From: Cephalotus follicularis
Lineage: Eukaryota; Streptophyta; Magnoliopsida; Oxalidales; Cephalotaceae
Reading direction: 5' to 3'
NCBI GenBank assembly: GCA_001972305.1
Contig: BDDD01000182.1
Coordinates: 559,595-623,594 of the forward strand
Length of the DNA stretch: 64,000 nucleotides
Shown: positions 2,000-64,000 of the stretch, one piece after another
How the letters are laid out: each line of letters opens with the position of its first letter
Numbering within the stretch: position 1 is the first letter of the stretch
Made by a program: the position numbers and the translations under genes
The notes under the pieces: generated by a model
The model's input: the letters and a program-made list of their open reading frames with translations, nothing else
Databases searched by the model: none
What the model was told of the DNA's origin: nothing

Positions 2000-4829
2000 T
2001 GTAATACCCCGATTCTTGTGTGCATATTTTGGAATTTTATTTTACTATATGGTTGGCCAATTTTAATTTGGGCTTTTATTTTTTAGGCTTAAAGACGTTA
2101 ATTTTGGGCTGTTGAATATTGGTTGGACTATGTACATGAATAAGTAAAATTAATTGAATTATATTTTGTATAAATATTAAATCAGTTTTTATTATTAATA
2201 TGGCAAAAGTGTTTTAAATTGGAAATAAAATAAGAGTATTATGGCAATTTTATTTTGTTTCCTATTTCTCCCCTCCCTCTCCCGTAAATCTCTTCCCTCT
2301 CCCTCACAAAACAGATTTTCTTCCTTCCTTCTCCCTATCAATCCCGAAATTCTGCCCTCTTTCCACATTATATCAGATTTTGGATTCCCTTTTTACCTTA
2401 CCATGACCTAAATTGCCTTTCTTCTTGGTTAAGTATGCTATATGCCCATTGTTTGTGCCTCCATTGTTTATCTCTCTCCTGGTGGCCGAACCTGCAAGAT
2501 TAGAATCTGTTTTGTTCTCCTTTGATCATCATACCAGGTCTGTTTTTCCTCTGTTGTTATGGTTTAGCAATTTAATTAGGTCTAATGTCATCCGAATTCT
2601 ATTGCATGTTGGTTGCTAGTATGTTTTGGTTTCTATTTCCTGCAACTCTAAGTGTTATCATGGTTTCTGAACCTGTCAACATGCACTAGGTAGAAGTTAT
2701 ATACTAATATTGATAAAAGATAATGATAATTGATCATATATGCATGTATACAATGAATTGGAAAATTGTCTATATAAAGCATGATCACCAATTGCATGAA
2801 CTTTTTGATTCTGGGTGTTTAAATGCAACTATTAAGTCACATATGTCCTATGCAAGTGTTTAAGATCATCTAGTATTGTAATATTGGAAGTTGACAGAAA
2901 AATTGCATAGAAACTGATGTGTTTTGCTATTCTGTCGAGCAGAACAGTCGGCTGTCCATTTAAACAGTCGACTGTTAGACTTTAAGTAGTCGACTGCCCT
3001 GTAAAATAGTCGGCTGGTTGCCTTGCATAGTCGACTAGACCCCTGTCACAGTCGACTGGATTCAACCCAGTTTGAGTAGTCGGCTGCCTATGCGATACAG
3101 TCGACTGCCATCTTTGAACAGTCGACTGGATTTTGTTACAATCGGCTGGAATTGTCCAGTAAATTTTCTGGTTTCAAGTTTTGTCATCCGTTTGGTTTTG
3201 TAATGATTTGGAGTATGCTTTTGACAGTTCTAAATTACTGATTGATGATTGGAAGTGATTTTTTTAATTCTTATATGTATGATATTGCATCTCTTAGATT
3301 TTTGTGCTACGAGTGACAATTAGAAATTGTTGATCAATTCGTCTATCTTTGTTGTGATCGCTTAAGGTACGGATTTTTTGTTCTTCGATATCTCCTTCGG
3401 TTTTATCTGAATAAATTCAGTTTAGTATTTTTATGATAACGTACGGATCTTAGTTTCTTGATACCCTCCTATCGGTTTTACTGTAGTAAATAAAAGATAG
3501 TTTTACTTTATGAATAATGTACGGATTTTTCTGCTCTTTGGCTATTTGATTTTATTGGAGCTATCCCGTTTCACTTTTTATGAACTTGGCTATGTTTTAC
3601 GATTCAATACGCTTTTGAAAATAAAAGTCAGTTGACATTTTACGAATTTAATGTTCTTGACTTTATTCTTATGCTATGATATGTTAAGAAATATGATACG
3701 ATCATCTCTTTATAGTGGAAAATAAATGAGTTGATGTTATGTAATGATTTTACTATGTCCAGAAAATGTTTAGAAAATGTGTTTACGTTTTTAAATCATT
3801 TTTAGAAACAAAGCAATGTTTTGAAGTAAGGATATACACAGAGATATTTCCTACCTATGGAGGTACCATAGGCATGTCGTAGGCCTGGCACTGGGACATG
3901 ACACTTCCGTAGCAGTGTGATTTGACTAAGGCGTCTCTCTATGTTATGAATAAATCCCATGAGGTGGATTTATGGATCCGATATGTGTGATAGAGGCGTA
4001 TGGGTATACTCTAGTTATATGTTATGTTAAGGATATGGATTCTGGGGATTGATTGTGTAGTGTCGTACACGTCCTTCCGTTTGGCATGTGGGCCTTGCAA
4101 ACCCCTTGCACCTATGCATATGTGTATGCACTTTGGATCTCGGTAATGAGATTATGGACTCAGATAAGTCTCTGTTTGTTGTTTTTCGTTTTGAATATGT
4201 TTTGGGATTTTGAACTTGGATTATGTTTTGAAATTGAATAACGCTTTGAAAATTCAATATTCGTTTTGAACTGATTGTATGATTACTTACCTTCGCTTTT
4301 GAAAATAATGTTAAATTATTTTATGCATAAGGTATATGATATTTAAAGATTCAGGTATTTTCTATCTTTTAAATTATCATTTTATGTTTTATGATTCTAT
4401 ATCCGTACTGAGGTTTGCTCAGCCGCGTTTTTGTTTCAATGCGGCAGGTATTCGGGGATAGCATCCGGGCAACGTGTGATGAGCGAGATGTCACCTATGA
4501 TAAGGATCACTTAGGAGATGGAATCGTTTATGCTTAGTTATTTTATGGTCATGTTAGGACCCCCTATTTGAACAATATTATGTATTTTAGTTTATGACTT
4601 TGGATTATGTTTCAGTTTTTGGTTTATGTTTAAGTTTTCATATTATGAATAAAGTCTTAGACAATGTTTTAGATTTTGAATATTAAGTTTTAGACCATCA
4701 CGCAATTTGAATAAAAGATGAGTTAATAATCTGATAAAAAGGAATAAAATTGAGTTATATTTCATGATAGGTTATGTTTAGTTTCGGACTATGAACTGGT
4801 AAGGAATCCCGCCATTCGGGGGTGTTAGA
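2000..4829 (+). mobile_element. Solo LTR, 2.8 kb, Ty3-type, inserted in the protease of element A
   Basis: The LTR starts TGTAATACCCCG and ends GGGTGTTAGA. It is flanked by the 5-bp target duplication CAATC (1995-1999 and 4830-4834). Element A coding sequence continues exactly across the gap. No gag or pol is inside, so the element is reduced to one LTR. A second copy of the same family lies at 9698-12434 on the other strand; the two share a conserved block around 3860-3990. A cluster of CAGTCGACTG-like palindromes sits at 2934-3150. A conserved block near 4400-4447 ends in GCGGCAG and resembles a 3' splice site. Confidence 0.88.
2934..3150. repeat. Cluster of GTCGAC-core palindromes (CAGTCGACTG type)
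   Basis: About nine copies of CAGTCGACTG or one-base variants such as CAGTCGGCTG, spaced roughly 20-30 bp. The spacers are unrelated to each other. The cluster lies between the proposed 5' and 3' splice sites of this LTR. Confidence 0.85.
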
Positions 4830-4834
4830 CAATC

Positions 4835-6297: not shown

Positions 6298-6409
6298 TGG
6301 TTCCTATAAGAAGGATGACGGTTAGTCATGACTTTAGGCAAACAATTCATTAATTGCCAAGGACAGTATCCTAGCTAAGCATATATGGAATATGCTCTAA
6401 TACCACTCT
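6298..6409 (-). other. Element A leader with primer binding site (6394-6405)
   Basis: Between the gag start and the LTR edge the minus strand carries a TGGTATTAGAGC-like primer site, matching the 3' end of plant initiator-Met tRNA with one difference from TGGTATCAGAGC. It lies four bases inside the LTR edge. The leader is about 110 bp and aligns with 24090-24199 of the other Tekay element. Confidence 0.85.
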
Positions 6410-6798
6410 TGTCACACCCCGTTTTCTCGAGAAGACAACATTAAGCGGTAAGGCAATTAACATATAAATTCAGCTCATGTAAAAGCCATAAAATTTAAAC
6501 TTTTAAACAAGATATCAATTGCGGAAGCATAAAACTCATAAGCTGAAAACTTGTAACGTGCATCCCATACTGCACGCTACTCAAAACAAGCTCGTCACTG
6601 TTAATAGCCCACAAAACGGAGTGTGATCACAGTACAATATTAAATCCCATCATTAACAAAACCATAAGTACAATACATTAGTAGTCCTTAAACAAAACCC
6701 GGTTTATTACAAAACAGGAGAATAAGTAAGCCAAGAACAAAAACAACATAACAACTTGTTCTTCGTCCATGCCAGTCCAACCGGTCCACTACATCAAT

Positions 6799-7555
6799 CT
6801 GTAAAGTAGGGGGTTAGCCTTTGTCCTCACTCAGCTAAGTCATAAAAGTCGCTCAGGATGAACATTAAATGCATGCCATGTAATGTAATGCATAAATGAT
6901 GCAGTGCAAGAAGTACCAGTTTATATATATATATGAAAATACATATAGATTTTAGCAGTTCAGTAAAAATAACAGTGGCTACATATATAAGAAAATATAT
7001 GCATGCGAGAACAGTACAGTTGTAACCCAGCCAGGGCTACATCAATGGTTGCCCCCTTAACAGTCGGCTGTCTCTTTTTGACAGTCGACTGCTCATTTAA
7101 CAGTCGGCTATCTCCTCTTGACAGTCGGTTGTTTAGTGGGCAGTACGCATTTTCTACATCGCCACTCACCCCAACATTTCCATCTTAGCGAATCCGGGTA
7201 AAGTGACACGTGGACAGTCGACCATCATCCCAAACAGTCAGCTATGCCATCTACGGTTGCCTGTTATCTCTTTGCAGTCAGCTAATCATACAGCATGAGG
7301 TAACCTCCATTAAAACGCATGAACAGTCGTCTGGCTCCTTTGCACAGTCGGCTATTTCCCTCTAGTAGTCGGCTGCTCCTACGAGCAGTGCACAAAACAG
7401 CAAAAAACACATGAAATTCTCAACCCAATCCATTCAAAAGAGAGCATTCATCAACAGCAACACACATTCATGCTCATATCATAGTCAATTGCATGCATTT
7501 CATCTATGAACAACCGTTATAATTGAACTAAAACCACATTTATGAAATCCCCTAC
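6799..7555 (-). other. Putative intron inside LTR of element A
   Basis: The donor reads AAG/GTAGGG. The acceptor reads CTACTTTACAG and follows a CTAACCCC branch-point-like block. The same pair of sites occurs in the other Tekay-type LTRs in this window. There is no transcript evidence here. The interval is about 757 bp. Confidence 0.4.
7061..7380. repeat. Cluster of GTCGAC-core palindromes, intronic cluster of element A LTR
   Basis: About eleven copies of CAGTCGGCTG, CAGTCGACTG and near variants at roughly 25-35 bp spacing, inside the proposed LTR intron. Confidence 0.85.
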
Positions 7556-7920
7556 CTTGAATTCCAAGTTAGGAATTGCAATCCACCTCTTTAAGTTTCG
7601 GATCTGAGGTGTTCAAAGCTCCCATGTCCATCCAATGGTTCCAACAGATCCGGTTCTCCCACTGGTTCGAGCCTCAAAGTCCCCGGTTCGAGTACAGAGC
7701 ATTTGGGTTTCACTTTTCTCTCTCTCTTTTTTCTCATTTTTCCTCACAAACTCTTGTCTCTTTTCTCTCTTTGAAATGCTGATGGGAAGAGGAGAATATG
7801 GTGTATTTTTATGGAGAAAACGCATCTCCCTTCCTCTCTCCTCACCTGCCCAAATATCATCTCAATCACTTCTCTCCCTGCCAAGATAGGTCTAGCATGC
7901 ACGTTATGCTGTCTAACCCA

Positions 7921-8340
7921 TGGCAGTCGACTGTCTTCCTTGGTAGTCGACTGTCCCTGTCGACAGTCCCAGTCGGCTGTCCCTCCCAGCAGTCGGCTGG
8001 TTCCACTTAAGGGGGTCCAGTCAACTATCTCTCTCTGGCAGTTGGCTGCTTGCCCTGTTTCAACACTTCTCTCACAATTTCCTTGACCTCTTTCTACTAG
8101 CTTTAACATTACAAAGTGGGAAAATTCATAACTCTCAGTAATTCAAAGCATAGATTACATCGAGAAATACAATATTATATTTAATAAAAATCCCAAGCGT
8201 GGTAGCAGCCGACTGTCAGAGAGAGGCAGTCGACTGGATCCCCTTTAGTAGAACCAGCCGACTACTGGGAGAAACATCCGGCTTGAAATGTCGGTAGAGA
8301 CAGCTGACTACCATGGAAAATAGTCGACTTCCATGGGTCG
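7921..8340. repeat. Two facing upstream clusters of CAGTCGACTG-type palindromes
   Basis: The upstream (U3-side) cluster of the minus-strand LTR (7921-8050) faces the homologous cluster of the plus-strand LTR (8207-8340). Together they hold about a dozen copies. The pairing makes this the centre of a large imperfect inverted repeat. Confidence 0.8.
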
Positions 8341-8880
8341 GACAGAATAACATGTGTGCCAGGCTTGTCATGGCAGAGGGAGGAGTGATTGATGGGAAAT
8401 GCTGGCAAAAAGAGAGAGAAAAAAGGGAACTCGTCTTTCCCATAAAAACACACATTCTCCTCCTCCTTCCATCAGCATTGCATCGGGAGGGAAGAAATAG
8501 AGAGTTTATGAGGAAGAAGGAGGGAAAAGAGAGGGAGAAGTTGAGCCCAAATGCTCCACACTTCAATCGGGACACTTTGAGACTTGAGCAAGTGGGAGAA
8601 CCGGACCTCTTGGAGCCATTGGACGGACTTGGGAGCTTTGAACGCCTTGGATCTGGGACTTAAAGAGGTGGATTGCAATTCCTAACTTGGAATTCAAAGG
8701 TAGGGGATTTTATAATTGTGATTTAAGTTCCGTTATGATGGATGTTCATAGATGCAATGCATGCAATAGACTATGATATGAGCATGAAATGTGTTGTTGT
8801 TGATGAATGCTCTATTGTGTTTGGATTGAGGTGAGAATTGCATGTATTTTTCTGCTGTTTTCGTGCACTACTCGCAGGAG

Positions 8881-9215
8881 CAGCCGACTGTCCCAGGAGG
8901 ACAGCTGACTGTTCAAGGTCACCAACCAGTTGCTCAGTGCGAATAGCCGACTACTCGAGGGAAACAACCGACTGTGCTAAGGAGCCAGTCGACTGTTCAT
9001 GCGTTTTAATGGAGGTCACCTCCTGCTTGTTGTGTAGTCGACTGCCAAGAGAGGGCAACCGACTGTAGATGGCATAGCCGACTATTGTTAGAAGGCAGCC
9101 GACTGCCAATAGAGGACAGTCGACTGTTGATAGGCAGACAGCCGACTGCCAGGCTAGACCGGCCGAGTGTTGAGAGGGAACAACCGACTGTCATGAAGGG
9201 ATAGCCGACTGTTGA
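8881..9215. repeat. Densest GTCGAC-core palindrome cluster
   Basis: About fourteen copies of CAGCCGACTG, CAGTCGACTG and one-base variants in 335 bp, mean spacing near 25 bp. CAGCCGACTG and CAGTCGGCTG are reverse complements, so plus- and minus-oriented LTRs carry the same asymmetric variant. Confidence 0.9.
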
Positions 9216-9653
9216 GGGACTGACTTGCATTCTAAGCATATGCGTGCATTATGTACAGTTGTGAACTAAATTGTGAACTGATTGTGAAATGTTTTATCAT
9301 TTTTGGAAGTGTATACATGATTATTATAAATCATTATTTTACTCAGATTTGTATGTTTTAAGCAAAATATATATTTTTGGAAGATTGTGAAAATGGCTTA
9401 CAAAAGATCGTGAACTGTTCAAAGAGTTATACATCGTGAAAATACGTTGTTTTCAAGTATTTTAACTTATAAACTACTTGGAAAACAAATTGTGAACTGA
9501 ATTGATTGTTGATTATGATTGTTGCCATACTAGTTGCGTGGTAGAGATGCCAGTGATGGCTAGTGACAGGGTTGACCCAAGGGCCAGGAGATGGCTGGGT
9601 AACTCACTGTACCGTGACCTACTCATGCTTCCAGGAGTTGGGGCTGATGTCAG

Positions 9654-9697
9654 GATGTACGACGTTGGGGCTAGGAGTTGGCGATGCTCTTCGTACC
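9654..9697 (+). other. Conserved 40-bp element with complementary ends (GTACGA ... TCGTAC)
   Basis: The segment opens with GTACGACGTTGGGGC and closes with GCTCTTCGTAC, so its ends can pair. A close copy occurs at 55441-55480 in a separate LTR. The solo LTR at 9698 inserted immediately after it and duplicated its last five bases. Confidence 0.5.
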
Positions 9698-9999
9698 TGT
9701 AACACCCCAGGACGGCGTGAGTCGTCACAGGGTCATATCATACATAGCATAACATATTATGAGTTTACTTTATTAGCCCATAACAGCCGAAAACGTGGCA
9801 GTCTTACCAAAACATTAAAAACTTAACATATTAAGTAGTTGCGGAAAACTCAAAACATAGTTCAGTTCCAATTTAAAACATAAAACATAAAATCAAATGT
9901 TTCAGACCACTAAACATAACATAGGGATCACTCTCCTAAGGATCCAACACATAAGGTGGTCATCACTAAATCACACTTTCCCCCGCTACTCCTGAAAAC

Positions 10000-11636
10000 C
10001 TGCCGCATGGAAAACAAAAACGCGGCTGAGCAAACCTCAGTACGGATAAGGGAAATAGAACAGTAAACGGTAATTTAAAAACGTTAATAATCCAATAATA
10101 ACGTAACAGAAATCTTTAACAGATAAAACAGTTTAATCATATTCAAAAGACAATTGCATACTTTTCAAAACAATTACGAAACATCAAAATCATAATTCGT
10201 AAAACATACTGAGCCATATTCATATCACATATCATAAATTTTGGCAAGGGAGGCGCTAATTCCACATTCCCACTAGAATTGAAGTGTACGACACTACACA
10301 AGTCAATTCTCACATACACAAGTCTGATCACACCTCGGACCACATATCTGAATTCACCTCAGATCACATAAAACAGAATCGATTCATACGCCTCTATCAC
10401 ATAGCGGATCCACAAATCCACCTCATGGGATTCGTTCATACACTCAGAGATGCCGTAGTCTAATCACACCCCTACGGAAGTGTCACGTCCCCGTGCCAGG
10501 CCCACGACGTGCCTATGGATACGCCCCATAGGTGGGTACAATACTCAGTATTTAAATTAAAATAATTGATTTATCAAAATCAACTTGAAACACATAAAAT
10601 ATGTTTTCACACAACATATTCAAAAACTGCTCACAACAGTATTATAACATATCATATCGTAACATATCGTATCTTAACATATCGTACCATAACATATTGT
10701 ATAGATAAAGTCGGAATCAATTAAAATGTCAAACCAACTTAAATTCGAAACATATCAAGATCATGAAACATCGTTGATTTCATAAATGAAGATGTTTATC
10801 AAAACAGTTTCAGTTTGAATGTCAGATAGCCAAGGAACAGAAAATTCGTACCTTATGCGCTTGCAAAGTACTTACGAATAGGCGATCAAGAACAAATTTC
10901 TCCTTTGAAGTACACAATCTATAAATATATTCAAAATCATATGTATAAGAGTTTAAAACACATTAGAAGCATTAAACAGACTCATAAAAGTGTTTGGAAA
11001 AGATTCGGATCGATTCGGGGGTCAAACGAATCAAAACTGTTGAAAACAGCACATTCCAGGGCATAACAGTCGATTAGAACAGGGGTCCAGTCGACTGGAG
11101 AGGCTTGGCAATCGACTGGATCATATGAACAGTCGACTACTCAACCAAAAATGCAGGTAGTCGACTGTGTTCTTCAATCCAGTCGAGTACACAACCATTC
11201 CAGTCGACTGTCCACTCAGACAGTCGGCTGTTCTGGGCGACAGAACAGTTGGAAATTCGACGATTTGCTACTAAAAATGGTTCAAATGATTTCTACATTA
11301 AACTAGAGACATATGGACATAAACATATGATTATATATGAGTTGTAGGTGATTTACAAACACAAATTTGACAAAGAAACGACCTTTCCATGATTTAACTT
11401 GAAAAAGGAAGCAAGAAGACATTGCATGAACATGTCCAGATTTTGTTTCTAATTGATAACAGATGTTATAAACTCAGTTTGTGACATATATAGGTGCATA
11501 AAACGTGCAGATAACATTACTAACACAATAGCAACATGTTTGGGCAAGAATCAAAGACTCCAAGATACCAAGAGCACAAAAACTCAAAGTAAGCCATTGA
11601 AACAAAACTATAATTGAAGGAGATGAATTCACTGAC
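10000..11636 (-). other. Putative intron inside the solo LTR
   Basis: Donor ACAG/GTCAGT and acceptor TGCGGCAG/GTTTTC on the minus strand, preceded by a TACTGAGG-like block. The acceptor block has a direct counterpart in the LTR at 2000-4829 (4441-4447). Sequence-based only. Confidence 0.35.
11066..11233. repeat. GTCGAC-core palindrome cluster
   Basis: About eight CAGTCGACTG-like copies. It occupies the same relative place, inside the proposed intron, as 2934-3150 does in the sister LTR. Confidence 0.82.
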
Positions 11637-12499
11637 CTGTAGTGATGTCAAGGAACAACCAGAAAACAGTAGGAGGAACACAAACACAACACACAATCTG
11701 CTGTGAACAGAAACAAAGAAAGAAGAATACAAAACCATGGTATTTTTAGACATACATAGCAAACTAAGAGAATTCAATCCAAGGAAACAACTAAAGGATT
11801 GAGATTACCTCTTGAACTTTGAAGAATGATTTACACAGAAGATTATTTCACACAAACAAGGTAGAATCTGCAATAGCTTGCATGAAGGATGAAGGCAACA
11901 TTTAAAATGGCAAGATACTCAATAATGGAGAAAGGAGGAGACAAGATTTGACAAAAGGGAGAAGAAGGGGGAACTTTTCTGGATTTTCAAATGGAAAAGG
12001 AAGCTTAAACATGTGAATTGATAGTGGGAATTGCTGGAAAGAAGGAGATGGTGGAAGGAAGTAGGAAGAAAGTTGAAGAAAATGCTAAAATAAGAAAAAA
12101 GGAAATTAAAAGAATAATAGAAAAAAGGAATTATGGATTTCAAAGATAAAAGAATAATAATAAAAAGAATTAAGGATTATTAAAATAAAAGAATAATAAT
12201 TTGTTTTTAATAAAATAAGTTTTGGATTAAAATAAGAATTTATAAAACCAAACATAGCATAACATACCCAAATATCGGACCGGTATCATTCCGCACAATT
12301 CACATAAACCCAAATCATAGGGCAACCGGACTTTTAAAATTAAACAAAATTAAAATCCCGAAAACACATACAAATTCCGTAAAATATATTTACGAACCCG
12401 TAAAAATACATTTTCGAACAAACAGGGTATTACAGTACCCATTGTGAATTGATTGGTGCTTTGGACATGATTGTGAATCATGAGATTGTAGCCTTTTGG

Positions 12500-12540
12500 C
12501 ATATGTATATATACCTATATATATATATATATATATATGC
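12500..12540. repeat. AT dinucleotide microsatellite
   Basis: An ATATAT run in the downstream part of the element B LTR. Similar but shorter TATA runs sit at the matching place in other LTR copies, for example near 6930, 24695 and 55575. Confidence 0.8.
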
Positions 12541-13022
12541 ATCGAGATATAGTATGTATTACATTACGATGCATTCATTACATGCAATTGTTTATCACTG
12601 ACCCTAAATTACACTTATAGTCTAGCCGAGTGAGGACAAAGGCTATTACAGATTGATGCACTGAGATGGATTTTGACCGTGCGCGGCCGAATCAGAGGGC
12701 GGATGGAGTTTTATTTACTTAAATAAATGTTAAACAATGTATTGTAACATATGTTGTTTTTGATTACTGTATAATGTATTAATGATGTTGATCGACTTTT
12801 ATTAAGCTTCGTTTGTGGGCAGTTGACAACGGATTAATAATATTAAATATTGGAATCATGCGGTATGGGACGCATGGTTCTGTTTACTTATTTAGCTTAT
12901 TATTAAATGCTTCCACAAGATGTTATTGGAATCAAAGTTTTAAATTTATCGTATTTTATGTATAGCTGGATTTATGTTGATTTCCATGACTTATATGTTG
13001 TTAATGAAGTGGGGTGTGATAG

Positions 13023-13783
13023 TGGGAGTCGAAGGGACTCGACAGTACATGTCAGAGGTTCCAAAGGGAGTTTCTTGATACTTATGTTCCCAGATCGAGC
13101 AAGAACAGAGACAGACGAAGCTCTTGGAGTTACGTCAATGGGAGATGACTGTGGCCGAGTATAAGGCCAGATTTATGGAGCTGGCCAGGCACTCAGCCTA
13201 TCTTGTAGCTGATGAAGAGAAGAAGATACGGAGGTTCTTTAGGGGTCTAAGATCGGATCTTCGGTCAAGGATTAGAGAATTGGAGTTGGGGACTTTTGTA
13301 GAAGTCGCTCAGAAAGCAAAATTGATGGATAGCATTTCAAATGAGGACCATGCCGAGAGGGCTCGTATACAGCAGAGTAAGCAAAGCCCTACCCAGTCTA
13401 GGCCAATATCATCGAACTGGGAAGGAAGTGGTTCTCCAATGAAATCATCAAGGAACAAATCTCAACAGACAGCTACCCAAGGTACTCCTAGTCAGGGGAG
13501 TAATGCTAGAACTGAAGCTTGTTCTCATTGTGGCCGTAAAAGCCATCAGCTGGAGGAATGTTGGTTGAAAAATGGGATGTGCATGAAGTGCGGAGCACCT
13601 GACCATTTTGCGAGGGATTGTCAAAGAAGGCAAGTGACAGTGCCTACTGGACCTGCAAGTGATAGTGGTACCACAACTTGTCCTTCACAACGGAGAGATA
13701 CCGGCAAGAGCATTATGAGAGGTAAGGTCTTCCCTCTTACTCACATACATTATATTGTTATTAATCGAAGTTGTTTTGATTGA
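13023..13783 (+). pseudogene. Element B gag remnant
   Basis: The sequence aligns with the middle and end of Tekay gag: a capsid-like stretch, then two CCHC zinc knuckles (CSHCGRKSHQLEEC and CMKCGAPDHFARDC). No primer site or gag start like those at 6297-6409 and 24089-24199 is seen between the LTR edge and this piece. It is a fossil. Orientation matches the LTR on its left. Confidence 0.85.
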
Positions 13784-14717
13784 TTGGGTTATCTAAAATA
13801 GTGATTGAGTGGATACTGATTAATATTAAGTTAGAACCTTCGGGGGCTAGCTAGCAAGTACGAGCATGAATGAATAATTGACTTAACGGTCAAACGAATG
13901 ATTGAATGAATTGTTGAGGCAGTAGAGGGAATGAACGACCATACACGTGTATATTGGTATGGGACAACATATATACTTAGCTAACTTCTAGGCTTCGTTT
14001 GGATCGATAAATGAGTATGGATTGTATCGTATTGATGCCGATTATATCGACTGGTTATTGGAGATAAGTCGACGAGACCTTGCATTGGTTACCGAAGGTT
14101 GAACAATCGACGATTAAGAATGAGTATTAGGTCACAGACATTAGGGAGATATTCGATTAGAAGGCTCGAGGGTATTCTCAAAACTCGATTTGAGATCGGG
14201 TTATCACCAGTTGAGAATACGTAAAGGAGATATTGAAAGACGAATTTTCAAACACGATATGGTCATTACGAGTTTCAGTTACCCCAACAACATTTATACC
14301 ATTAATGAATGGTGTGTCCTGATCATCCTAGGATCAGTTGGTCGTAATGCTCATTGATGGCCTACTGAGATAGTCAAAAGAACTATGTCGATAGTGTGGA
14401 AAGGAGACTTTTATTTTTTGATGTCTTCCATGGTTTTATGTTACGAAACTACATCCAAGATCCATCATACATCATGGGTGGTGACTCGATATCGATTCAA
14501 GATGATCCTTCTTACGAGAAGTCACCAGTGAGGACCCCTGATTGGAAGACACAAGTATTGAGGAACCGAACCGTACCTATGGTGAGGATTCAATGGCAGT
14601 TTCATCATCCTTATGAGATGACATGGGAACATGCAGAAGAGATTAGGGAATGATACCTCATTTATCCCAGAAGTGTTAAGCAAATTCGAGGACGAATTTT
14701 TTTGAAGTAGGGTGGAT
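13784..14717 (+). pseudogene. Collapsed pol remnant with chromodomain end and polypurine tract
   Basis: Only islands of Tekay pol remain within about 0.9 kb: a reverse-transcriptase piece (about 14190-14300), the end of integrase (about 14430-14520), and a chromodomain-like end (about 14540-14653, WQFHHPYEMTWEHAEEI). A purine-rich tract (GAAGTAGGGTGGAT) ends at 14717, just before an LTR. The stretch 13790-14150 was not assignable. In intact members pol is about three times longer. Confidence 0.7.
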
Positions 14718-14858
14718 TGTTAACGCCCGGAATTTCATATGCGTGATATTTCATAATTAATGTGAATGATGGAAATTCCATTTTGATAATGCTGCCCAAT
14801 TGAGTAAGGATTTATTAAAGGTATAATGCGAATTGGAAAAGGGGCTAAAAACAGCCTT

Positions 14859-15012
14859 AAGCGTCGACGCCTAAGAAGTAACTTTCGACACCCAACGATT
14901 GCAATGCGTGCTTAAATGTAAGTTTCAAAGAGTTGACGCTAGAGATATGCGTCGACGCCAATGCATGCGTTGAGTTAAGCATCAATGCCTATGTTATAAC
15001 CGGGGACGCTTA
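14859..15012. repeat. GTCGAC-core palindromes, GCGTCGACGC type
   Basis: About five copies with GC arms (AAGCGTCGACGCCT and similar) upstream of a purine-rich probable start region. Confidence 0.8.
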
Positions 15013-20960: not shown

Positions 20961-20963
20961 AAT

Positions 20964-54011: not shown

Positions 54012-54266
54012 TGTAACGTCCCTGATCCGAGTTCACTTTATACTCAAAGCGTGCCTCAAGGATCCCGTGCGTTACGTGGGGTGAAACCTTTGACCTTTTA
54101 AACGATATTGCTTATAGCGTATTTGTAATGCCCGGGATTTTCATTAATATAATGTTTTATTTTCCAATGCATTTATGCAATTAATTAATGAGAATTATGA
54201 CTTTTCCTTTTTGTAGTGTTAAATTTGGGCAAAAGTTGAAGTGTAGAAAGTGTTGCTACAGGGCGG

Positions 54267-54408
54267 GCAGTCGACTGCCCAAGAGGGACGGTTGACTGGA
54301 CCCCCTTCCCTGAGTGGAACCCGCCGACTGCTGTGAGAGACAGCTGGCTGGGGATGGTGTCGGCAGAGACAGCCGACTGCAAAGATAAGGGAGTCGACGG
54401 TCATGGTA
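54267..54408. repeat. GTCGAC-core palindromes, upstream cluster
   Basis: About six copies of GCAGTCGACTGCC-like sequence between the LTR start and the TATA-like element. Confidence 0.82.
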
Positions 54409-54940
54409 TGTGTCAGCTAAAAACGTGTTAGCAGTCTCATTTGGCAGAGAGAAAGGGAGAGGAGACAAAATTTGTGATAGTGTCAGCTTGTGAGGAGAGA
54501 GACATGAAAATGGCATAAAAACACACTTTCTCTTCTCTTCTAATCAGCAAATTCAAAGTGACAGAGGGTTGTGAAGAGGGTGAGGACAGTGGAGAGAAAA
54601 AGAGAGAGAGAAGTTGTATCTCTCCAATTTTGAGCTTGGAATTTGGGCTTGGAGCTCGAACCAGACTTGGTGGAGTTGCCGGACGAATTCGGAGGCTTGG
54701 AAACTCCGATTGGAACTTAAAGAGGTGGATTGCAATTCCTAACTTGGAATTCTAAGGTAGGGGTAAATTTCATAATTTTTATTTAAGTTTCGTTATAATG
54801 GAAGTTAATGGACGAATTGCATGCTATGGACTGTACTATGAGCATAAATGTGTGTTATTGCTGTTGAATGCTCGTGTTTGGTTGGATTGAATTGTGAAAG
54901 ACATACATTTTTCTATTGTTTTTGCCTACTGCTACAAATC

Positions 54941-55235
54941 CAGTCGACTGCCAAGGCGGGCAGCCGACTGGCGAGCTAGAACAGCCGGCTGTTCAGTGCA
55001 AACAGCCGACTACTCAATAGGAAATAGCCGACTGGACGTAAGAACCAGTCGATTGTTCATACGTTTAATAGAAAATATATGCAGAAGGTTGTGTAGTCGA
55101 CTGTCATTTGAGGGCAACCGACCAGACGAGGAAGACAGCCGACTGTTAGGGGAGGCAGCCGACTGCCAGGACTAGGACAACCAGTTGTCGAAGGAAAATA
55201 GCCGACTGTCAAGAGGAGACAGCCGACTGGTTAGG
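54941..55235. repeat. GTCGAC-core palindromes, intronic cluster
   Basis: About eleven copies (CAGTCGACTG, CAGCCGACTG, ATAGCCGACTG and similar) with 20-30 bp spacing. Confidence 0.88.
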
Positions 55236-55440
55236 GACTGACCCGCACTTTGAGCATATCTGTGCATTGCGTTTTGATATGAAATGAATTGATGATTGGA
55301 ATATGGATGATTCTAAAGTGTTTTATTCATTTTAGAAATGTGTACATGATTTTATACAAATCATTATTTGATATGAAAATATATATTTTTTTGATTTGTT
55401 GCCTTGCTTCGTGACCCGGGAGTCGGGGGCCGAAGTAAGA

Positions 55441-55480
55441 GTACGACGTCGGGGCCAGGAGATGGCGGCGCTCTTCGTAC
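55441..55480 (+). other. 40-bp element with complementary ends (GTACGA ... TCGTAC)
   Basis: The second copy of the segment at 9654-9697. The core GGGGCCAGGAGATGG also occurs, in reverse orientation, in both LTRs of element C (near 17540 and 24850), so it is conserved between subfamilies. Confidence 0.5.
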
Positions 55481-57039
55481 ATATTTGATTTGATTGGTTT
55501 TGTCCTTTGAGACATGATTGATGATTTGATGGTTGTAGCCCCTTGGCATGGTTGCACCTATTGGCATATATGTATATACATATGTATATGTACGTGTGGT
55601 GATATATTATATATATTGCATCATGAGTGCATTCATTTCATGACATTCATTATCACTAACCTTGAATTACACTTATGATTTAGTCGAGTGAGGACAAAGG
55701 CTAACCCCCTACTGTTGCAGATTGATGCAGTGATGTGGATATCGACCGTACACGGCGAATCTGTGGAGAGATAGAGTTTTATTGTTTAAATAAATGTTTT
55801 AACAATGTATTGAGACCCGTATTATTTTGGATTAATGTATTAATGGTGTTGATCGACTTTTGATCACGCCCCATTTACGGGCAATCGACGATGGCTCAAT
55901 TATGTTAGTGTTGGAATCATGTGGTATGGGACGCATGATTCGGTTTGTTTATCTAGCTTGTTATTAAATGCTTCTGCACATGCGAATGGAATTGAAGTTT
56001 TTAATTTTATCATATTTGTATGAGCTGGATAACGTTATATTGATTGCCTTTATCACTTTAATGCTGTCTTATCGGGAACGGGGTGTGACAGTATTCGATA
56101 AGCTCATAACTTAAAAATATACTTAGAATTATCATTAATCATCTGTATCATAATTAATAACTTCACAGGATACCTTTATAGCCTTTAACACCAACTTTTA
56201 GAATTATCATACTTCTCACTTGAAACCTTTAAACACAATGACGATCATTTCTAACAGCGATACATAACAGTGGAAACGTCACATCATACTCGATAACTTG
56301 ATATCTTCAAATATCCTTATTTCTTAAAAAATTTCATACTCGTAACAATTTACAACATAATTATAAACCTCAAATATATTCTATAACTTTCAGCGCCAAC
56401 TTCTAAATAACAACATTTTATGAAAACGTCGTAATTGTAGCGTTTATTTCTATACATTTATGTCTACACGTCATCTGTCATAATACCTTACACAGTGGAA
56501 AACATAGACTTGTCATAACAGCGTTATACAGCGGAAACATAAACTCGTTATGTCAACAGCAGTTGATGCAAAACCTTATAGCATAACATGCTTTCTTTCC
56601 CAAACTTCCTTTACGAATTTTCTCTAAAGCTCGCAATTCCACCATCGATCGTCTCCTGGAAAACATTTTATTTGGAAACAAAACATTGCAAGGAATGAGC
56701 TCAAATAGCCCAGTAAGGATTATAGTCATAAAAACGTTATAGATTTTTTTTTATATATTCTTTATCAAAACGTTTTCAAATCATACATTTTACTAGCATA
56801 TAACGTAGCCATACTTTACTCTCAAGTATGTTCAATAACTCTTGATATATAAAAAAATGTAGAGAGAGAAGCTCCTCCCTCTCTCTTCTTTTCTCCCTTC
56901 TCCTTACCCTGGTTTTTCCCGCCTTTGAGCCCTTTCTTCGCCTAACCTTTGCTTCCTTTCCCTGGTTCTGTGCTTCCTCTACCTTCTACCTCTACCGTCT
57001 AATAACCCTGACTCTTCTCTGGAGTTCTTTGAGCCCTCG

Positions 57040-58082
57040 ATGGTTGATGGACAGCCTAGGGAAAACCCCCCCCCTGAGGTTGCTCTGAACGGGGCTAAGG
57101 AATAGGAGCACTCCATTGTTGCGTTCTTAGTTGGAAAGAAGCTCCCAAACAGGGACGTCTTGCAGATCCTTCAGAGGAAGTGGGGACAGATTGGTAGGTT
57201 TTCGATCCATGTTGCTGGTAATGGTGTCTTCTTGGCAAGGTTTGAGAACAGGCAGGCGAGAGACTGGGTCCTTGATAAAGGTCCATGGGACGTGTGGGGT
57301 TATCATTTGGCCATTCGGCCGTGGAGTCGAGATATGTCATTGTCTTTGGGGGAGTGTAAATCCATGCCACTGTGGGTTAAACTGAAGGGTGTTCCTATTC
57401 AGTTCTGGAACAAAGTGGGGCTTAGTTACATTGCTAGCGTGCTTGGTAAGCCTCTGCATATGGATGTCACAACGATGAATAGACACCTCCTTATGTTTGC
57501 GCGTGTGTGCATTGACATGTCTGCTTCGAGTTCATTCCCAGAGAGTGTAACCTTAGAATTGGAGGATGGTAGTACAACTTCCATTGAAGTGGAGTATCCT
57601 TGGCGCCCGGCCGCGTGTGCACTCTGCAAGGTTTTTGATCACTCAACCGGTCTTGCCCTAATGTGAGCAGTAGGGAATGGATGCCAAGACCAGTGTTGAT
57701 GGCTCAACGGAAACCTGAAGATGCTGAGGGGTGGATCACCGTTAAAAGGAAAGACAGTGGTGCTGTTGATGATATTTCTTCACCTCCTGTGGTAGAGGGT
57801 GCCACTGGTCCTGTCACGGTTGGTGATGTGCCAGAAGGGTTGCAGCCCCCAAAAACTCCCGTGAAGGCTACTACTGATAATCCATCGACCTCTAAGGAAG
57901 CTAGAAAGATGATTGGGGAGGCGGAAAGGTGCATATTGCCTAGTTCTCCTCGTAAACTGCTGCCAGGAAGCTCTAGCGGGTCAAAGAAGAGAAAGAAAAA
58001 GGGCCATAGTGGCCAGGGGGGGCTGGTTCTCGCAGGTCCAGATGACAGGTGTTGCCACTTGGAATGTGAGGGGCTTGAATGA
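57040..58082 (+). pseudogene. LINE ORF1: DUF4283-like RNA-binding protein with CCHC knuckle, damaged
   Basis: ORF1 of plant L1 elements encodes an RNA-binding protein that coats the element's RNA. The likely start is ATG at 57040. An in-frame TAG occurs at 57103, after 21 codons. The DUF4283-like region (about 57106-57600: [37 protein letters not shown]) then stays open. The zinc knuckle ([13 protein letters not shown]) begins at about 57616, and near 57653 one base appears missing, since the second half continues in the next frame (SSREWMPRP onward) to a stop at 58080. The tail is Lys-rich ([10 protein letters not shown]). It overlaps ORF2 by about 40 bp. Confidence 0.85.
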
Positions 58083-61000
58083 CCCCTCAAAACACAATGA
58101 GGTGAGGCATTTCCTAAGCTCCAATAGCATCTCCTTGGTTGGCCTTTTGGAATCTAGGGTTAGTATCCATAATCTTGATAGGATAGTTAGTAGTTTAGGT
58201 AAGAAATGGGTTTATACCTCAAACCATCATGTGTCCCTGGCTGGTAGAATTGTTGTGGCCTGGAACCCCTCCTATCTTAACTTTGTTCCTGTCCATGTCA
58301 CTGAGCAAGCCATCCACGGCCATGCTACCCTCAGTGATAATATGTGTATCCATGTCTCTTTTGTATATGGTTTGTGTGACAGAACCGCAAGGAAGTCCCT
58401 ATGGGGTGAATTGGCTCATTGTGCTGCTATGTTTCGCAACGAACCTTGGGTGGTCCTTGGTGATTTCAATGTTACCCGGTATGGAACTGAACATGCTACT
58501 AGTAGGGTGGTCACCAAGGCAATGCAGGACTTTAACAAGGCTGTTGTTACAGCGGAGTTGGAGGATCTTAATAGTGCTGGTTATGTGTTTACTTGGAGTA
58601 ATAGGAGGCAGGGAGAGGGGGAGGTTAAGAAGAAGTTAGATAGGGCTATGGGGAATTGGCAGTGGTTTAAGTCTTTGGGTGATGCATATGCCCACTTTCA
58701 CCCCCCTGGGATCTCTGATCATTCTCCGATCACCATCCAGATGAGACTTAGGCAGCCGTTTAGGGGGAGATCTTTTAAGTACTTAAACTTTTGGTCGAAG
58801 GATGACCGGTTTTTGCAGGTGGTAAGCCATGAATGGTTGAAGGCTCATACAGGCTCTCCCCTTGTTGTTATACACAAGAAGTTGAAATCTCTTAAAGCTT
58901 GCCTAAGGAATTTTTGCTCTAGACCTGACTCTAGGGTGGCTGACCTTAGGGCCCGGTTGAAGCAGGTGCAACAACTATCCCTTGGGGGGGATGTTCCCCC
59001 AGGTGTCTTTGAGCTGGAGAGACAGTTAAGATTGGAAGTTAGTGATGCGGCCAGGGATGAAGAAGCCTTCTTTAAGCAGAAATCTAGGATTCAATGGCTT
59101 AAGGAGGGAGATTCTAATTCTGCCTTCTTCCATAGGGTGGTGAAGATGAGGCAGTCCAGAAACCACATAGTACGGATAAGGGATGAAGATGAGGGTTGGG
59201 TTGTCACTGAGGAAGCTATTGCTCACGTTGGGATTGATCACTACAGAAAGCTTATGGGGACTTCGAGTAGACAAGAGCCTAGGTTATGTGACCTTTATGG
59301 ATATGACAAGCATATATCTGAGGAGCATTTTATTGCCATGGGCAGCCCAATATCTAGGGAGGAAGTAAAGGATGCTTTGTGGTCTCTCAATCCCCTCAAA
59401 GCCCCTGGCCCGGATGGGTACAATGGCAGCTTTTTCAGAGATGCGTGGAGCATTGTTGGCGAAGATTGCACCCAGGCCATCCTTAGTTTCTTTGCCACGG
59501 GTTTCATGCCCAGAAGTCTCAACGCCACAGCCTTAGCCCTTGTGCCCAAGGTGAAGTGTCCAGAGAGGATGAGTGACTTTAGACCTATCGCCTGTTGTAA
59601 CTTCCTTTACAAAACTATCTCGAAGATCATTGCTAATAGATTGAAGCTAGCCCTCCAACACCTAGTAGACCCTGCACAGTCGGCTTTTGTCAAGGGTCGA
59701 AACATAAGACATAACATTTTGCTTGCCCAGGAGCTCCTGCGTGGATACCACTTGAATAGGGGTGCTGCCCGTTGTGCCTTTAAGGTGGATATACACAAGG
59801 CCTATGATACTATTGAGTGGGACTTTGTCCTGGCCATGTTAACGAAGGTTGGGTGCCCCAGGAACTTTGTTGGGTGGGTTAGACAGTGCATCTCTTCTCC
59901 TATGTACTCGGTGATTCTTAATGGTAGCATGCATGGATTCTTTCCTGGTAAGAGGGGGCTTAGGCAGGGAGACCCTCTCTCGCCTTACCTCTTTGCTTTG
60001 AGTGTTGATCTCCTCTCCCACCTTCTCCATCCCTCTGTCTTAGGGAGACAATTCAGGTTCCACCCAAGGTGCCAGCGGGTGGGCATTACCCACCTGTGTT
60101 ATGCAGACGACCTCCTTTTGCTATCGGCGGCGAGCCTCTCATCTGTTAACTGCCTTTTCGAGAGCTTGGATAAGTTCAAAGAAGCCTCGGGTCTCACAGT
60201 TAGTCCTCAGAAGAGTGTGGTGTTTTTCTGCAACACTAATGCTAGGATGAGGAGGGACATTCTCCATAGGGTTGGGTGCCTTGAAGGTATGTTGCCAGTG
60301 ACTTATCTTGGTCTCCCCCTGATCACTAAGAGATTATCTAAGGGAGCGTGTAGCACTCTGGTGGAGCGTATCACGGCTAGAGCCAATTCCTGGGTAAGTA
60401 AGGCCTTGTCTTTTGCTGGTCGACTTCAACTGGTGAAGGCTACCCTTATCAGTATGCAGTGCTATTGGTGTAACATTTTCCTTCTTCCCATGAGTACTAT
60501 AAAGGAGTGTGAACGTGTCCTTAGGACTTTCCTGTGGGGTGGAAGAGGCAGAGCCAAGGTGAAGTGGGCTGATGTTTGTAAACCGTTCTTGGAGGGTGGG
60601 CTGGGTATCCGTGACTTGAAGACATGGAATAAAGCTTTGCTCCTTAAACATCTCTGGTCTGTGCTCACGGAGGATTCTATCTGGGCCAAATGGTGTCATG
60701 CCTATCTTCTCCATAATTCCAACCTTTGGACAGCTACGTTACATGGTCATCTTTCTTGGTCATGGAGGCAGATCCTTCGTCTGAGACCACTGGCGAAGGA
60801 GCATCTCATTTACAAATGTGGGAACGGTGAGCATTTCTCCCTCTGGTTCGATCCGTGGCTGCATGGAGATTCCGTTCATGCTCTTTATGGACACAGGGTA
60901 ATGTTTGAAGCTGGTCTGAGCAAGCATGCCCGGGTGAAGGATGTTATAAGGGAGGGTGAGTGGTGTTGGCCCCAGACCTCATGTGATGTGGTTGAACTGC

Positions 61001-61647
61001 AACGGAGAGTGAGAAGCATCCCAATCTCAACTGCTCCAGATAGTATACATTGGGACAAAGTGGGGGAGGTGTTCTCCACTGCCAGTGCATTTCATGGTAT
61101 TAGACAAAGGTTCCTATTGGTGGATTGGCACGACATTGTCTGGCATAGTAGAAGAATACCTAAGCATGCTTTCAGCTTATGGTTAGCGCTTCGGGGAGCT
61201 CATAGGACCAAGGACAAATTGTTGGCTTTTGGGGTGGTTCATAGTGCCGATTGTGCCTTCCTCTGTGGGGAGACAGAAACGCTACAACATCTCTTCTTCC
61301 AATGTCCGTTCTCATCCATGGTGTGGAGGGAAGTCCTGCTTATGTGCAATATTGCCAGACCCCTTCTCCCGTGGGCGGATGAAGTGCTGTGGATGTCCAC
61401 TCATGCAAGAGGCAGTGCGTTTCACCATACTGTGAGGAGACTTGCCTTTGCAGCCACCGTTTATCATTTGTGGATAGAGAGGAATCGTCGCTGCTTCAAG
61501 AACGTGTTCCTACCTTACCAGGAGATCATTCGCTTGGTGAAACAGGATGTCAGTGGGAAGCTGGCATCAGGCAAGAGCTATCCCAGGTGTGAACGTTACC
61601 ATAGCCTATGTGTTAATTGGGGTGTCCCGTTCGGTGAGGATATCTGA
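58042..61647 (+). CDS. LINE ORF2: endonuclease-reverse transcriptase, 1201 aa
   Basis: ORF2 cleaves target DNA and copies the element RNA onto the nick in the nucleus. I chose ATG 58042 because the endonuclease fold starts there (ATWNVRGLN). The open frame extends 43 codons further upstream, but within ORF1. Endonuclease, residues 1-230: Asn8, Glu37 (LLESR), GDFN 140-143, SDHSPI 225-230. Reverse transcriptase, about 440-740: [38 protein letters not shown] and YADD near 687-690. C-terminal zf-RVT region, about 1025-1100, with [18 protein letters not shown]. No RNase H domain follows. No stop or frameshift is seen and all key motifs are present, so it may be functional. Confidence 0.95.
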
Positions 61648-62025: not shown

Positions 62026-62863
62026 AACGTAGCCATACTTTTGAAAACAAAACATCATTAAAATCCTTTTCTGGTATAAAAACCATCACGTTTCATAAAA
62101 TCACATTCATTCTTTACTGTTCATATCTCATGAAACAGAACATTTCATTCTCTTTTTCTGATCATATCTCATGAATCAGAACATTTCATAAATAACTGAG
62201 GGGTCATAAAAACATAAAAACAGACCCAATTGAACCATTGCTTCACCGGGGCATTGTGCACTCCCCCATTACTATCCTTACACCACATGCATGTCCGTGA
62301 GCACTCTCCGCTCATAACATTAATCCTTGTCTAGATTAATCCTCCCTGGATCGCAATCCAGTAGTTGTTCATCTCGATTCATTGCATTTTCTCATTTCGT
62401 AAAAAACATTTCTTAATACTTTGAGTGATCAGCTCAAAGCATTAATAAAACAATTTTGTAAAACATTTGTGAAACTAAATTTAAAACAGTATTGTAAAAC
62501 ATTTGTAAAACTGAATTTAAAACATTTTAATAAAACATAATATGAGCAAAAAGTTTTAAATACAAATTTTCGTAAGAAAATGGCAAAATATCGAAATACA
62601 TAAAAGCATAATTTTCCAGAAAATACTTTAAAATGAGTAAGCATAAAATATTTGGCAAAAATATAGAATTGTTGTTAAAATTCTTTGGTATATAAAAATA
62701 GCATTTTTCCTTACCACCACAAAATACTTTAAAAAGGCGATTATGAATCCTTACATTGCTTTAATCTCCTTCCCTCCTTTTCTAGGCTGAAGTAATTTCT
62801 ACACCGAAATCTCCACAAAATTCTCCTTCTCTTCTCTTCTCTCTTTCTCTTTCTCTCTTTCTC

Positions 62864-64000
62864 TGTAACTCCCGGGAATGTCACGCATTGTAATTAATTA
62901 AATTTTGATGTAACCTTACCATGGAATTAATGAGAATAATGAAATTCCAGACTTTGATGATGTTTTCCAAACTCTAATGATGTTGATTTTGGAATACGAA
63001 TGTTAATGAAATGTTAAAAGAGTGCTTTTTAGGTCAAACAGCACAGTTTTGGGTTGAAAGCGTCGACGCCTTTTTGGAAAGCGTCGATGCCTTTTTGGAA
63101 AGCGTCGACGCCTATGCGACAAAAATGTGCACGTGAACCATGCACATGCATGTCGACGCCTTTAGACAAAACGCTATAAGCGTTGACGCCTGAATATAAA
63201 CGTTGACGGATTGTGTTGTGTCCCTGATGTGCACAAACAACAGATAAACATGGCACTTGGAGGAATGTTTGTGCCACTCTTCAGACACCTTCACATGTGT
63301 TTTATGACGTGTTCATCATGTATTGAGATTCCCTGAGTTATAGGGACTTGAAAGGCACTGAAGAGAGGAAGAATGTCTAAGTGCATGGCCTGCAAAGAGG
63401 AAGAATGCAACACCTGTTGCATCAGGCTTGCATGAGGGAGAGAGACTTAAATTGGTGGGCATATGTAGATGAAACAAAAATAAAATCTGCATAAAAGTCG
63501 ACTCCTCTCACCCCTCTCATTTGTTACTGAAAGAGAAGGCCAAAATATTGAGAGAGACACGGAGAGGGAAGGAAGTAGAAATGATAGAGAGAGAAAAGAT
63601 CAAACTCCATTGTTGAGCAAGAGAGAGAAAGCTTGGAGCTTGGACAACGACTGTGGAACAAACCAGGGAGCTTTCAGGCTGAACCTGGGGACGCAAAGTA
63701 ACTTAGTGGATACTAAAAGTGGTGGACTTTTGGCTTCTAACTTGAAGCCTGAGGTAGGGGAAGCCATACTTGTATTTTGTGTTCAATATTTGTGTTTTTT
63801 CAGTGATGTTTATGCACAGATTGCATGAACTGTTGAACTATTTTTGGTCACTGAAATTATACCATGTTGTACTGGATGTGTAATATGATGTTACATGTAA
63901 TTTTTCTGGGCTTTATACATGTTGGATTGCATGTTATTGTTGTGGAAATGTCACTGTTTGGTCACGTCGTGAGGAACAAGACGATTGATGCTTGAAACCG
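62864..64000 (+). mobile_element. Start of a Tekay-type LTR leaving the window
   Basis: Begins TGTAACTCCCGGGAATGTC directly after the GA/CT-rich end of the previous LTR. It has an upstream palindrome cluster of the GCGTCGACGC type, a purine-rich start region (63535-63630) and a donor GAG/GTAGGG (63754), as in the 14718-37562 LTR. The acceptor block and the LTR end lie beyond the window. Confidence 0.78.
63058..63208. repeat. GTCGAC-core palindromes with a near-tandem triplet
   Basis: Three units of AAGCGTCGACGCCTTTTTGG in a row at 63058-63115, about 22 bp apart, then three more spaced copies. The first three spacers are almost identical, so this cluster shows growth by tandem copying. Confidence 0.85.

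Follow-up and report, generated by a model that had tools for sequence, protein, structure and literature searches.

Tandem enhancer repeats are found in the promoters of retrotransposons and viruses, as in the BII boxes of Tnt1 and the 21-bp repeats of HTLV-1 and SV40. Many plant genomes consist to a large extent of Ty3 elements, and the VANDALs are DNA transposons. In this report, we describe arrays of short palindromes centered on GTCGAC in the long terminal repeats (LTRs) of Ty3-type retrotransposons from Cephalotus follicularis (contig BDDD01000182.1, positions 559,595 to 623,594 of the forward strand). All of the results were obtained with this single 64-kb stretch of 64,000 bases, denoted here as the window. 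The palindrome arrays are a real, non-random feature of the window and are better ordered than first described. We consider it probable, with moderate confidence, that they are phased, multi-copy putative sites for a sequence-specific DNA-binding protein, which would bind in dimeric form to inverted repeats of 10 bp centered on YCGR and would either switch on or protect the LTR promoter.

The closest described systems are presented here from excerpts of the articles cited. In the VANC target arrays of the VANDAL transposons, short motifs are repeated in tandem and serve as binding sites of an anti-silencing protein; from one related element to another, the motifs change in concert (Hosaka et al. 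2017, PMC5735166; PMC10398659). The insulator of the Drosophila gypsy element contains 12 Su(Hw) sites within 340 bp of the 5' untranslated region (PMC2374998). The C-repeat/dehydration-responsive element (CRT/DRE) sites of barley CBF1 and CBF2 are given as RYCGAC and GTCGAC (PMC4222965). In PMC6911290, palindromes are treated as insertion targets. Among the matches listed, the titles and the first lines of abstracts in the open-access literature describe no arrays of GTCGAC palindromes in LTRs, which is not proof of novelty.

The window has a GC content of 41% and contains retroelements of the Ty3 and Copia types, together with one long interspersed nuclear element (LINE). The hexamer GTCGAC was found 48 times, relative to 5.3 occurrences expected from the dinucleotide content (ratio of 9.0), and it ranks first among the 64 six-base palindromes by over-representation; the runner-up has a ratio of 3.8 that derives from three occurrences. 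Three 10-bp consensus sequences, CAGTCGACTG, GCGTCGACGC, and ACATCGATGT, are present as 13, 5, and 6 exact copies, respectively (24 in the window), and the mean for each was 0.0 in 20 sequences generated with a first-order model. The LTRs were placed by self-alignment, shared ends (of the type TGTAAYACCCC...GGGTGTTACA), matches to primer sites, and target duplications. The array-bearing Ty3-type LTRs, to which 24,689 bases were assigned, contain 42 of the 48 GTCGAC hexamers, and 38 of them fall within 20 array intervals that total 3,264 bases; the ends of the intervals used for the GTCGAC and CpG counts are slightly different from those of the site arrays listed below.

A site was defined as a sequence with no more than two mismatches to any of the three consensus sequences, which were themselves derived from the same window. 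By this definition there are 134 sites across 11 LTRs, and 121 of these are grouped in 20 arrays of 3–11 sites. For every one of these 11 LTRs, the number of sites is higher than in any of 200 dinucleotide shuffles of the same LTR (7–17 sites observed, 1.0–2.9 expected). The two Copia LTRs are free of arrays, with one site in each, and neither they nor seven internal or LINE regions were clearly enriched when compared with 200 shuffles each; the highest of these controls was a Copia internal region, with 8 sites for 4.2 expected and as many in 13 of 200 shuffles. Both the control regions and the consensus sequences were picked after the data had been seen. The initial annotation of this DNA had reported at least 17 clusters and well over 100 copies in ten or more LTRs, at a density unlikely by chance. 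These claims hold, with the numbers of clusters and copies being right if imperfect copies are included. It had also stated that the clusters are shared by most Ty3-type LTRs. Arrays are indeed present in 11 of the 13 non-Copia LTRs or LTR fragments and in neither of the two Copia LTRs, a count that is not blind, since the boundaries of LTR8, LTR9, LTR11, and LTR57 were sought because an array was present, and that includes LTR12 as non-Copia without a superfamily assignment. LTR12, an 821-bp solo LTR with an exact 5-bp target duplication (CCATG), contains no sites. The truncated LTR10 has two sites and no clear enrichment (38 of 200 shuffles have as many); it was not taken as a counter-example because LTR8 seems to cut it off ahead of the expected place of an array.

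The test was repeated with the looser motif RYCGRY, by counting pairs separated by 20–22 bp in 6 of the 11 LTRs and in six control regions, with 500 shuffles each. LTR1, LTR6, the 5' LTR of the Ty3-type element designated E2, and LTR9 exceeded all 500 shuffles, and LTR11 exceeded all but one. No RYCGRY pair at this distance was found in the six control regions.

Two classes of flanks surround one common core. The CAG class (YAG-YCGA-CTG) is found in LTR1, LTR2, LTR3, LTR4, and LTR6, and the CpG-variable GCG/ACA class (RCR-TCGA-YGY, denoted here as the GCG class) in E2, LTR57, LTR8, LTR9, and LTR11. With one mismatch or fewer, the five CAG-class LTRs contain 36 CAG-type and no GCG/ACA-type sites, and the other six LTRs contain no CAG-type sites; with up to two mismatches, a single site in LTR3 scores as ACA. 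A division into three flank classes was dropped, as ACATCGATGT can be read as GCGTCGACGC after CpG-to-TpG/CpA changes and the arrays of E2 are mixtures of the two. Little information lies outside the 10-bp site, apart from the adjacent AA/TT of the GCG class, whose sites are often preceded by AA and followed by a T-rich sequence. The two halves of the site vary nearly independently, as determined for each class separately, which would be expected if a protein reads them as two half-sites. A first test for palindrome-preserving compensation inside GCG-class sites was suggestive but biased by scoring against two symmetric consensus sequences. With degenerate patterns, most position pairs did not deviate from expectation. 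Those that stood out, each under a single pattern, were the outer pair (23 of 2000) and the third (45 of 2000), and shuffling within LTRs changed these values to 161 and 142 of 2000. The element that carries LTR3 is 76–83% identical to E2 in the internal regions, yet the former has CAG-class and the latter RCRTCGAYGY sites, so that either whole arrays have changed together or an LTR has been exchanged. In viral contigs, the GCG pair pattern gave no matches, and the CAG pair pattern gave one, a single hairpin in a stretch of 58% GC immediately after a 559-codon open reading frame (ORF), which we read as a terminator plus chance.

The core of these sites is similar to the CRT/DRE element, and the arrays might consist of RYCGAC or GTCGAC sites read by host AP2 proteins of the CBF/DREB type, with stress-driven expression of the LTR as the result. 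PLACE-type entries exist for both sequences (CBFHV, RYCGAC; CRTDREHVCBF2, GTCGAC; PMC4222965). One or both strands carry RYCGAC in 39 of the 51 sites of LTR1–3, 16 of 18 sites of LTR4 and LTR6, and 9 of 13 sites of LTR9. In the site sets of the other LTRs, which include sites with up to three mismatches, RYCGAC is on neither strand in 9 of 18 sites of the E2 5' LTR, 10 of 19 of the E2 3' LTR, 9 of 14 of LTR57, 4 of 7 of LTR8, and 8 of 10 of LTR11, and it is thus not present in each site, as would be expected of a CBF element. The conservation of bases flanking the core to the left and right, the symmetry, and the two classes of outer bases are also left unaccounted for, and we regard this explanation as quite improbable. 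For the 51 sites of LTR1–3, RYCGAC is on the sense strand only in 26, the antisense strand only in 1, both strands in 12, and neither strand in 12.

The spacing of the sites is mainly a ladder of about 21 bp, which corresponds to two turns of the DNA helix. The interval between neighbors inside arrays is 20–22 bp in 59 of 101 cases. When the same number of sites was dropped at random into the same array lengths, 5.6 ± 2.2 spacings of 20–22 bp were obtained for 12 of the 20 arrays, with a maximum of 16 in 5000 draws; the observed number is 41 of 69. The distances between RYCGRY pairs across the window, in a spectrum where duplicated LTR copies are counted more than once, have values of 6, 16, 33, and 4 at 19, 20, 21, and 22 bp, with further peaks at 40–43 bp (6, 4, 13, and 7) and at 60–64 bp (4, 5, 6, 6, and 5). 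This spectrum replaced the vector strength of neighbor spacings, which was uninformative because one value dominates. A spacing of 20–35 bp with unrelated spacers, distinct from simple tandem repeats, had been proposed initially. The main interval is narrower, with peaks at its multiples, and the spacers are at chance similarity only in LTR4 and LTR6, where 82 and 164 of 500 base shuffles are as alike and the interval is still kept. They are alike in LTR1, LTR2, LTR3, E2, LTR8, and LTR9 (0 to 4 of 500 shuffles as alike) and weakly so in LTR57 (24 of 500), with LTR8 and LTR11 contributing just two spacers each. Because the spacers resemble one another in several arrays, array growth occurred at least partly by tandem duplication, and the site and the interval then outlasted the spacer.

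These similarities raise the possibility that the arrays are neutral or structurally driven 21-bp minisatellites, which originated by slippage from one palindromic unit and have otherwise decayed, with no binding protein involved. Tandem Repeats Finder calls short arrays of 20–21 bp at 3078, 7060, 9089, and 63056, among others. LTR1 also contains an internal duplication of approximately 95 bp (54941–55035 and 55136–55230, 74% identical). The spacers at chance in LTR4 and LTR6 argue in the opposite direction, as does the conservation of the sites. LTR1, LTR2, and LTR3, which represent one LTR family, were aligned with the sites defined in one sequence at a time. The identity was found to be 79–87% for site columns, 61–74% for spacer columns, and 63–70% for the rest, with the smallest gap between sites and spacers for LTR2 and LTR3. 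A CpG was kept in 66 of 87 directed comparisons inside sites and in 56 of 199 outside; each pair was counted in both directions, and neither LTRs nor directions are independent. With neutral decay, the 10-bp sites and the CpG within them should have drifted along with the spacers. The ratio of observed to expected CpG is 1.10 for the arrays, 0.64 for the remainder of these LTRs, and 0.51 elsewhere, which would also be unexpected for a neutral repeat, although the high value follows in part from the CpG core of the site. About four groups can be distinguished among the 11 LTRs, between which no sequence is alignable at an E value of 1e-3, and the core and the spacing are common to them. An origin as minisatellites alone is therefore considered to be unlikely.

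The high CpG content of the arrays amid CpG-poor surroundings also bears on control by the host. The arrays may be recognized by a silencing or chromatin protein of the host, or may act as methylation-dense or boundary DNA, and would then persist irrespective of any benefit to the element. A perfect CAG-class site combines CAG/CTG with CG and hence provides symmetric CHG and CG positions. Sites that are purely harmful to the element should vanish, yet these have multiplied in several lineages and are conserved in the one family tested, and in our judgment this explanation has a low probability.

The arrays occupy similar positions with respect to a putative promoter. In the sense orientation, array 1 begins 140–231 bp from the start of LTR1, LTR3, LTR57, LTR8, LTR9, LTR11, and both LTRs of E2, and 3 bp from the start of LTR2, which is truncated at the 5' end. 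The TATA, pyrimidine, and donor patterns described here are putative. A TATA-like CATAAAA is located downstream of array 1 at position 391 in LTR1 and LTR3, 238 in the truncated LTR2, and 627 in LTR8. LTR9 has TATAAATA near position 659, and E2 and LTR57 have only TTTAAAA. Pyrimidine-rich and GA-rich stretches are nearby, and in E2 the pyrimidine stretch precedes TTTAAAA; additional TATA-like words are found elsewhere in most of the LTRs. A block of approximately 55 bp, resembling an exon end with a splice donor and ending in AGGTAGGG, is common to seven otherwise diverged Ty3-type LTRs: LTR2 (8654–8707), LTR1 (54710–54766), LTR8 (63707–63762), and LTR57 (15484–15532) on the plus strand, and the two LTRs of E2 (18677–18735 and 26055–26111) and LTR3 (7547–7570) on the minus strand. 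The LTR57 block is cut short by a nested insertion. The conserved block suggests a spliced leader that would begin in the LTR. In all seven LTRs, array 1 lies before the block and upstream of the putative start region. Array 2 follows the block, at about positions 680–1514, in six of the seven, and LTR8 leaves the window before this point. No second array of at least three sites was found in LTR9 or LTR11. Only one array is present in each of LTR4 and LTR6, at positions 1205–1368 and 946–1149, respectively, if their uncertain orientation is right.

Self-complementary sites could also pair within or between transcripts, for the dimerization or packaging of the element RNA. Two perfect sites can always pair, and the folded arrays are more stable than shuffled sequences (54930–55240, z of –3.56, 0 of 100 shuffles; 2935–3160, z of –6.45, 0 of 200), although arrays of palindromes will fold well whatever their purpose. 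In the sense-strand variant that is common in LTR1–3, a C at position 4 makes the self-duplex less stable (–5.7 versus –15.9 kcal/mol), and the mirror variant, which keeps a G-U pair (–14.7 kcal/mol), is the rare one (26 versus 1 for RYCGAC on the sense or antisense strand only); pairing of antisense RNA is unaffected by this argument. There are no clear compensating changes within sites, a test that does not extend to covariation between sites, and Rfam gave no matches at gathering scores. Neither the helical phasing nor an array ahead of the presumed start would be expected for RNA pairing, which we hold to be highly improbable.

A site for a dimeric protein fits these observations best, given the symmetric consensus with its information limited to the site, the nearly independent halves, the phasing at 21 bp, the conservation of sites over spacers, the retained CpG, and the placement around the presumed promoter. 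The fit is poorer for CBF/DRE sites, for RNA pairing, and for neutral tandem repeats. We infer the steps of protein binding, dimerization, cooperativity, and either promoter activation or anti-silencing. Sites two helical turns apart would place successive dimers on the same face of the DNA, favoring cooperative binding. Array 1 would lie upstream of the start region and array 2, where present, downstream of the end of the first exon, and from these places the likely role would be exerted on the LTR promoter, either by activation or by keeping it open against silencing. The lineages differ at the outer two base pairs in all copies together, and each lineage would probably be served by a related factor of different specificity.

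Several observations weigh against this interpretation. The pair spectrum has a peak at 70 bp (10 pairs) that is off the ladder, and neighbor intervals that do not match double turns include 28 bp (four times), 48–50 bp (seven), 13 bp (two), and a scatter of longer ones. Part of the regularity derives from duplication. LTR57 was marginal with the RYCGRY motif, having 8 sites for 4.2 expected (34 of 500 shuffles with as many) and one pair at 20–22 bp (9 of 500). The right half of the site, in the sense orientation, is better kept in LTR1–3; a monomer or heterodimer, or the duplication of one variant, would also give this asymmetry, which may be a single inherited variant because many of the sites descend from shared sites. 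The 11 LTRs belong to only about four unalignable groups from one window.

A host factor or an element-encoded dimer had been suggested in the initial annotation as the protein that binds the arrays. An array of dimer sites is indeed the best fit, and the protein may be of either host or element origin. A Pfam scan covered 20 of the 48 ORFs (at least 110 amino acids), of which 12 have retroelement or LINE-type domains (gag, protease, reverse transcriptase, RNase H, integrase, and DUF4283) and eight have no match. The scanned ORFs of these broken elements include no additional protein gene, and a gene for the binding protein is possible in intact copies. A protein-coding reason for the conservation was also considered, as ORFs 7744–8142 (minus strand) and 8298–8663 (plus strand) extend over array 1 of LTR3 and LTR2. 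These two ORFs have no Pfam match, and the encoded proteins are 48% identical over 69 residues, compared with 80% for the DNA; this explanation was dropped because such values are unlike conservation at the protein level.

The CAG-class arrays are located as follows. LTR1 (54124–56090, plus strand, 1967 bp) has the ends TGTAATGCCC...GGGTGTGACA and contains five sites in array 1 (54268–54400), upstream of CATAAAA, and 11 sites in array 2 (54941–55229), downstream of the donor-like block. LTR2 (8204–13021, plus strand) lacks roughly the first 150 bp and is split by LTR4 (9698–12434); array 1 (8206–8330) has four sites and array 2 (8881–9211) has 11. LTR3 (6410–8203, minus strand) is the 5' LTR of a minus-strand Ty3-type element, with a primer-binding-site complement (one mismatch) at 6394–6405. 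Its array 1 (7924–8048) has seven sites, and array 2 (7039–7375) has sub-clusters of three and six sites, one of the latter six being the site scored as ACA. LTR3 and LTR2 are related Ty3-type LTRs, 80% identical, that lie head to head across 6410–9697 with a junction near 8204. LTR4 is a solo LTR with a 5-bp target duplication (GTACC) and an array of eight sites at 11067–11230 (minus strand), and LTR6 is a solo LTR (2000–4829) with a 5-bp target duplication (CAATC) and 10 sites at 2945–3148 (plus strand).

The GCG-class arrays include those of E2 (16889–26914, minus strand), a Ty3-type element that may be a plant Ty3 chromovirus (Tekay-like). The LTRs of E2 (16889–19547 and 24200–26914) are 92.5% identical and the target duplication is GCTTT; there is an exact primer-site match at 24185–24196, the ORFs have Pfam retroelement domains, and a chromodomain-like tail of the integrase was recognized by eye only. 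The 5' LTR has five sites in array 1 (26594–26741) and two sub-clusters of four sites each in array 2 (25401–25824), and the 3' LTR has five sites in array 1 (19227–19374) and sub-clusters of three and five sites in array 2 (18043–18447). LTR57 (plus strand) is found as two parts, 14722–15533 and 35616–37562, with three sites in array 1 (14861–14958) and seven in array 2 (35921–36243). Three levels of nesting are present in 14722–37562: a Copia-type element (about 15534–35615) interrupts LTR57, and one Copia LTR is in turn split by E2. The other Copia LTR (33315–35615) represents the empty site for E2. Array 1 of LTR8, which starts at 62864 on the plus strand, has five sites at 63060–63189 after the removal of overlaps. 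LTR9 (about 39099–41654, plus strand) has eight sites at 39329–39658, about 100 bp upstream of its TATA-like sequence, and no target duplication was seen for this LTR. LTR9 also holds a tandem repeat at 40070–40436 with a unit of 128 bp, 2.9 copies, and 93% matches. LTR11 (about 47686–49139, minus strand), which adjoins a gag ORF (46900–47592) and is putatively a 5' LTR, has seven degenerate GCG-class sites at 48648–48926.

Two further regions of the window are of a different nature. Between the CAG-class LTR2 and the GCG-class LTR57 is a gag-pol remnant (13022–15533), the flanking LTRs of which do not resemble a pair; it is possibly a recombinant or the product of an LTR exchange. At 57106–61647, a LINE is inserted into an LTR fragment and contains a DUF4283 ORF (Pfam) and an uninterrupted ORF of 1244 codons, in which an endonuclease and a reverse transcriptase were recognized by eye. 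This LINE may be young.

If the arrays are indeed bound by protein, a shared activator, an anti-silencing factor, or a boundary protein would have strong candidate sites in them. They would provide a handle on the proteins that Ty3 elements need for expression and a natural series of whole-array shifts in specificity. A more speculative proposal, which we think unlikely to be correct as a whole, is that LTR retrotransposons have evolved lineage-specific "address" arrays similar to those of the VANDALs. Phased palindromes flanking the promoter would be read by related dimeric proteins, from the host or borne by intact copies of the element, that keep the promoter open, and the arrays would switch specificity together as lineages split, thereby escaping silencing or competition.

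The known systems resemble these arrays in different ways. The repeats of Tnt1, HTLV-1, and SV40 likewise place activator sites in multiple copies ahead of a TATA box, in some cases as 21-bp units, but they are few, nearly identical, and limited to one family, whereas here several families that cannot be aligned have 3–11 degenerate palindromes per array and another array further downstream. The CRT/DRE element (PMC4222965) shares the GTCGAC or GCCGAC core, chiefly with the CAG-class sites, but is a 6-bp directional site that is absent from both strands in half or more of the sites of five of the six GCG-class LTRs. Within a gypsy-type element, the nearest parallel would be the gypsy insulator, which is an array of protein sites, at a density similar to that of the 3–11 putative sites here, in a non-coding part of the element. 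It differs in being a single array of sites for a zinc-finger protein, and in its location in an animal element, within the 5' untranslated region; the sites are not reported as palindromes in the excerpt of PMC2374998. In principle, the nearest parallel would be the VANC target arrays. The VANDALs themselves encode the binding protein, and no additional protein gene was recognized in the 20 ORFs scanned here from broken elements. The VANC motifs (YAGTATTAY and AGTTGTCC/AC) differ from the LTR sites; the main text of PMC5735166 contains no occurrences of "palindrom-", "spacing", "periodic", or "LTR". In both systems, however, the non-coding parts of the elements carry numerous copies of short motifs, the arrays expand and contract by tandem duplication, and related elements differ by a change of motif that is common to all of the copies, as do the LTR3 element and E2 unless an LTR was exchanged.

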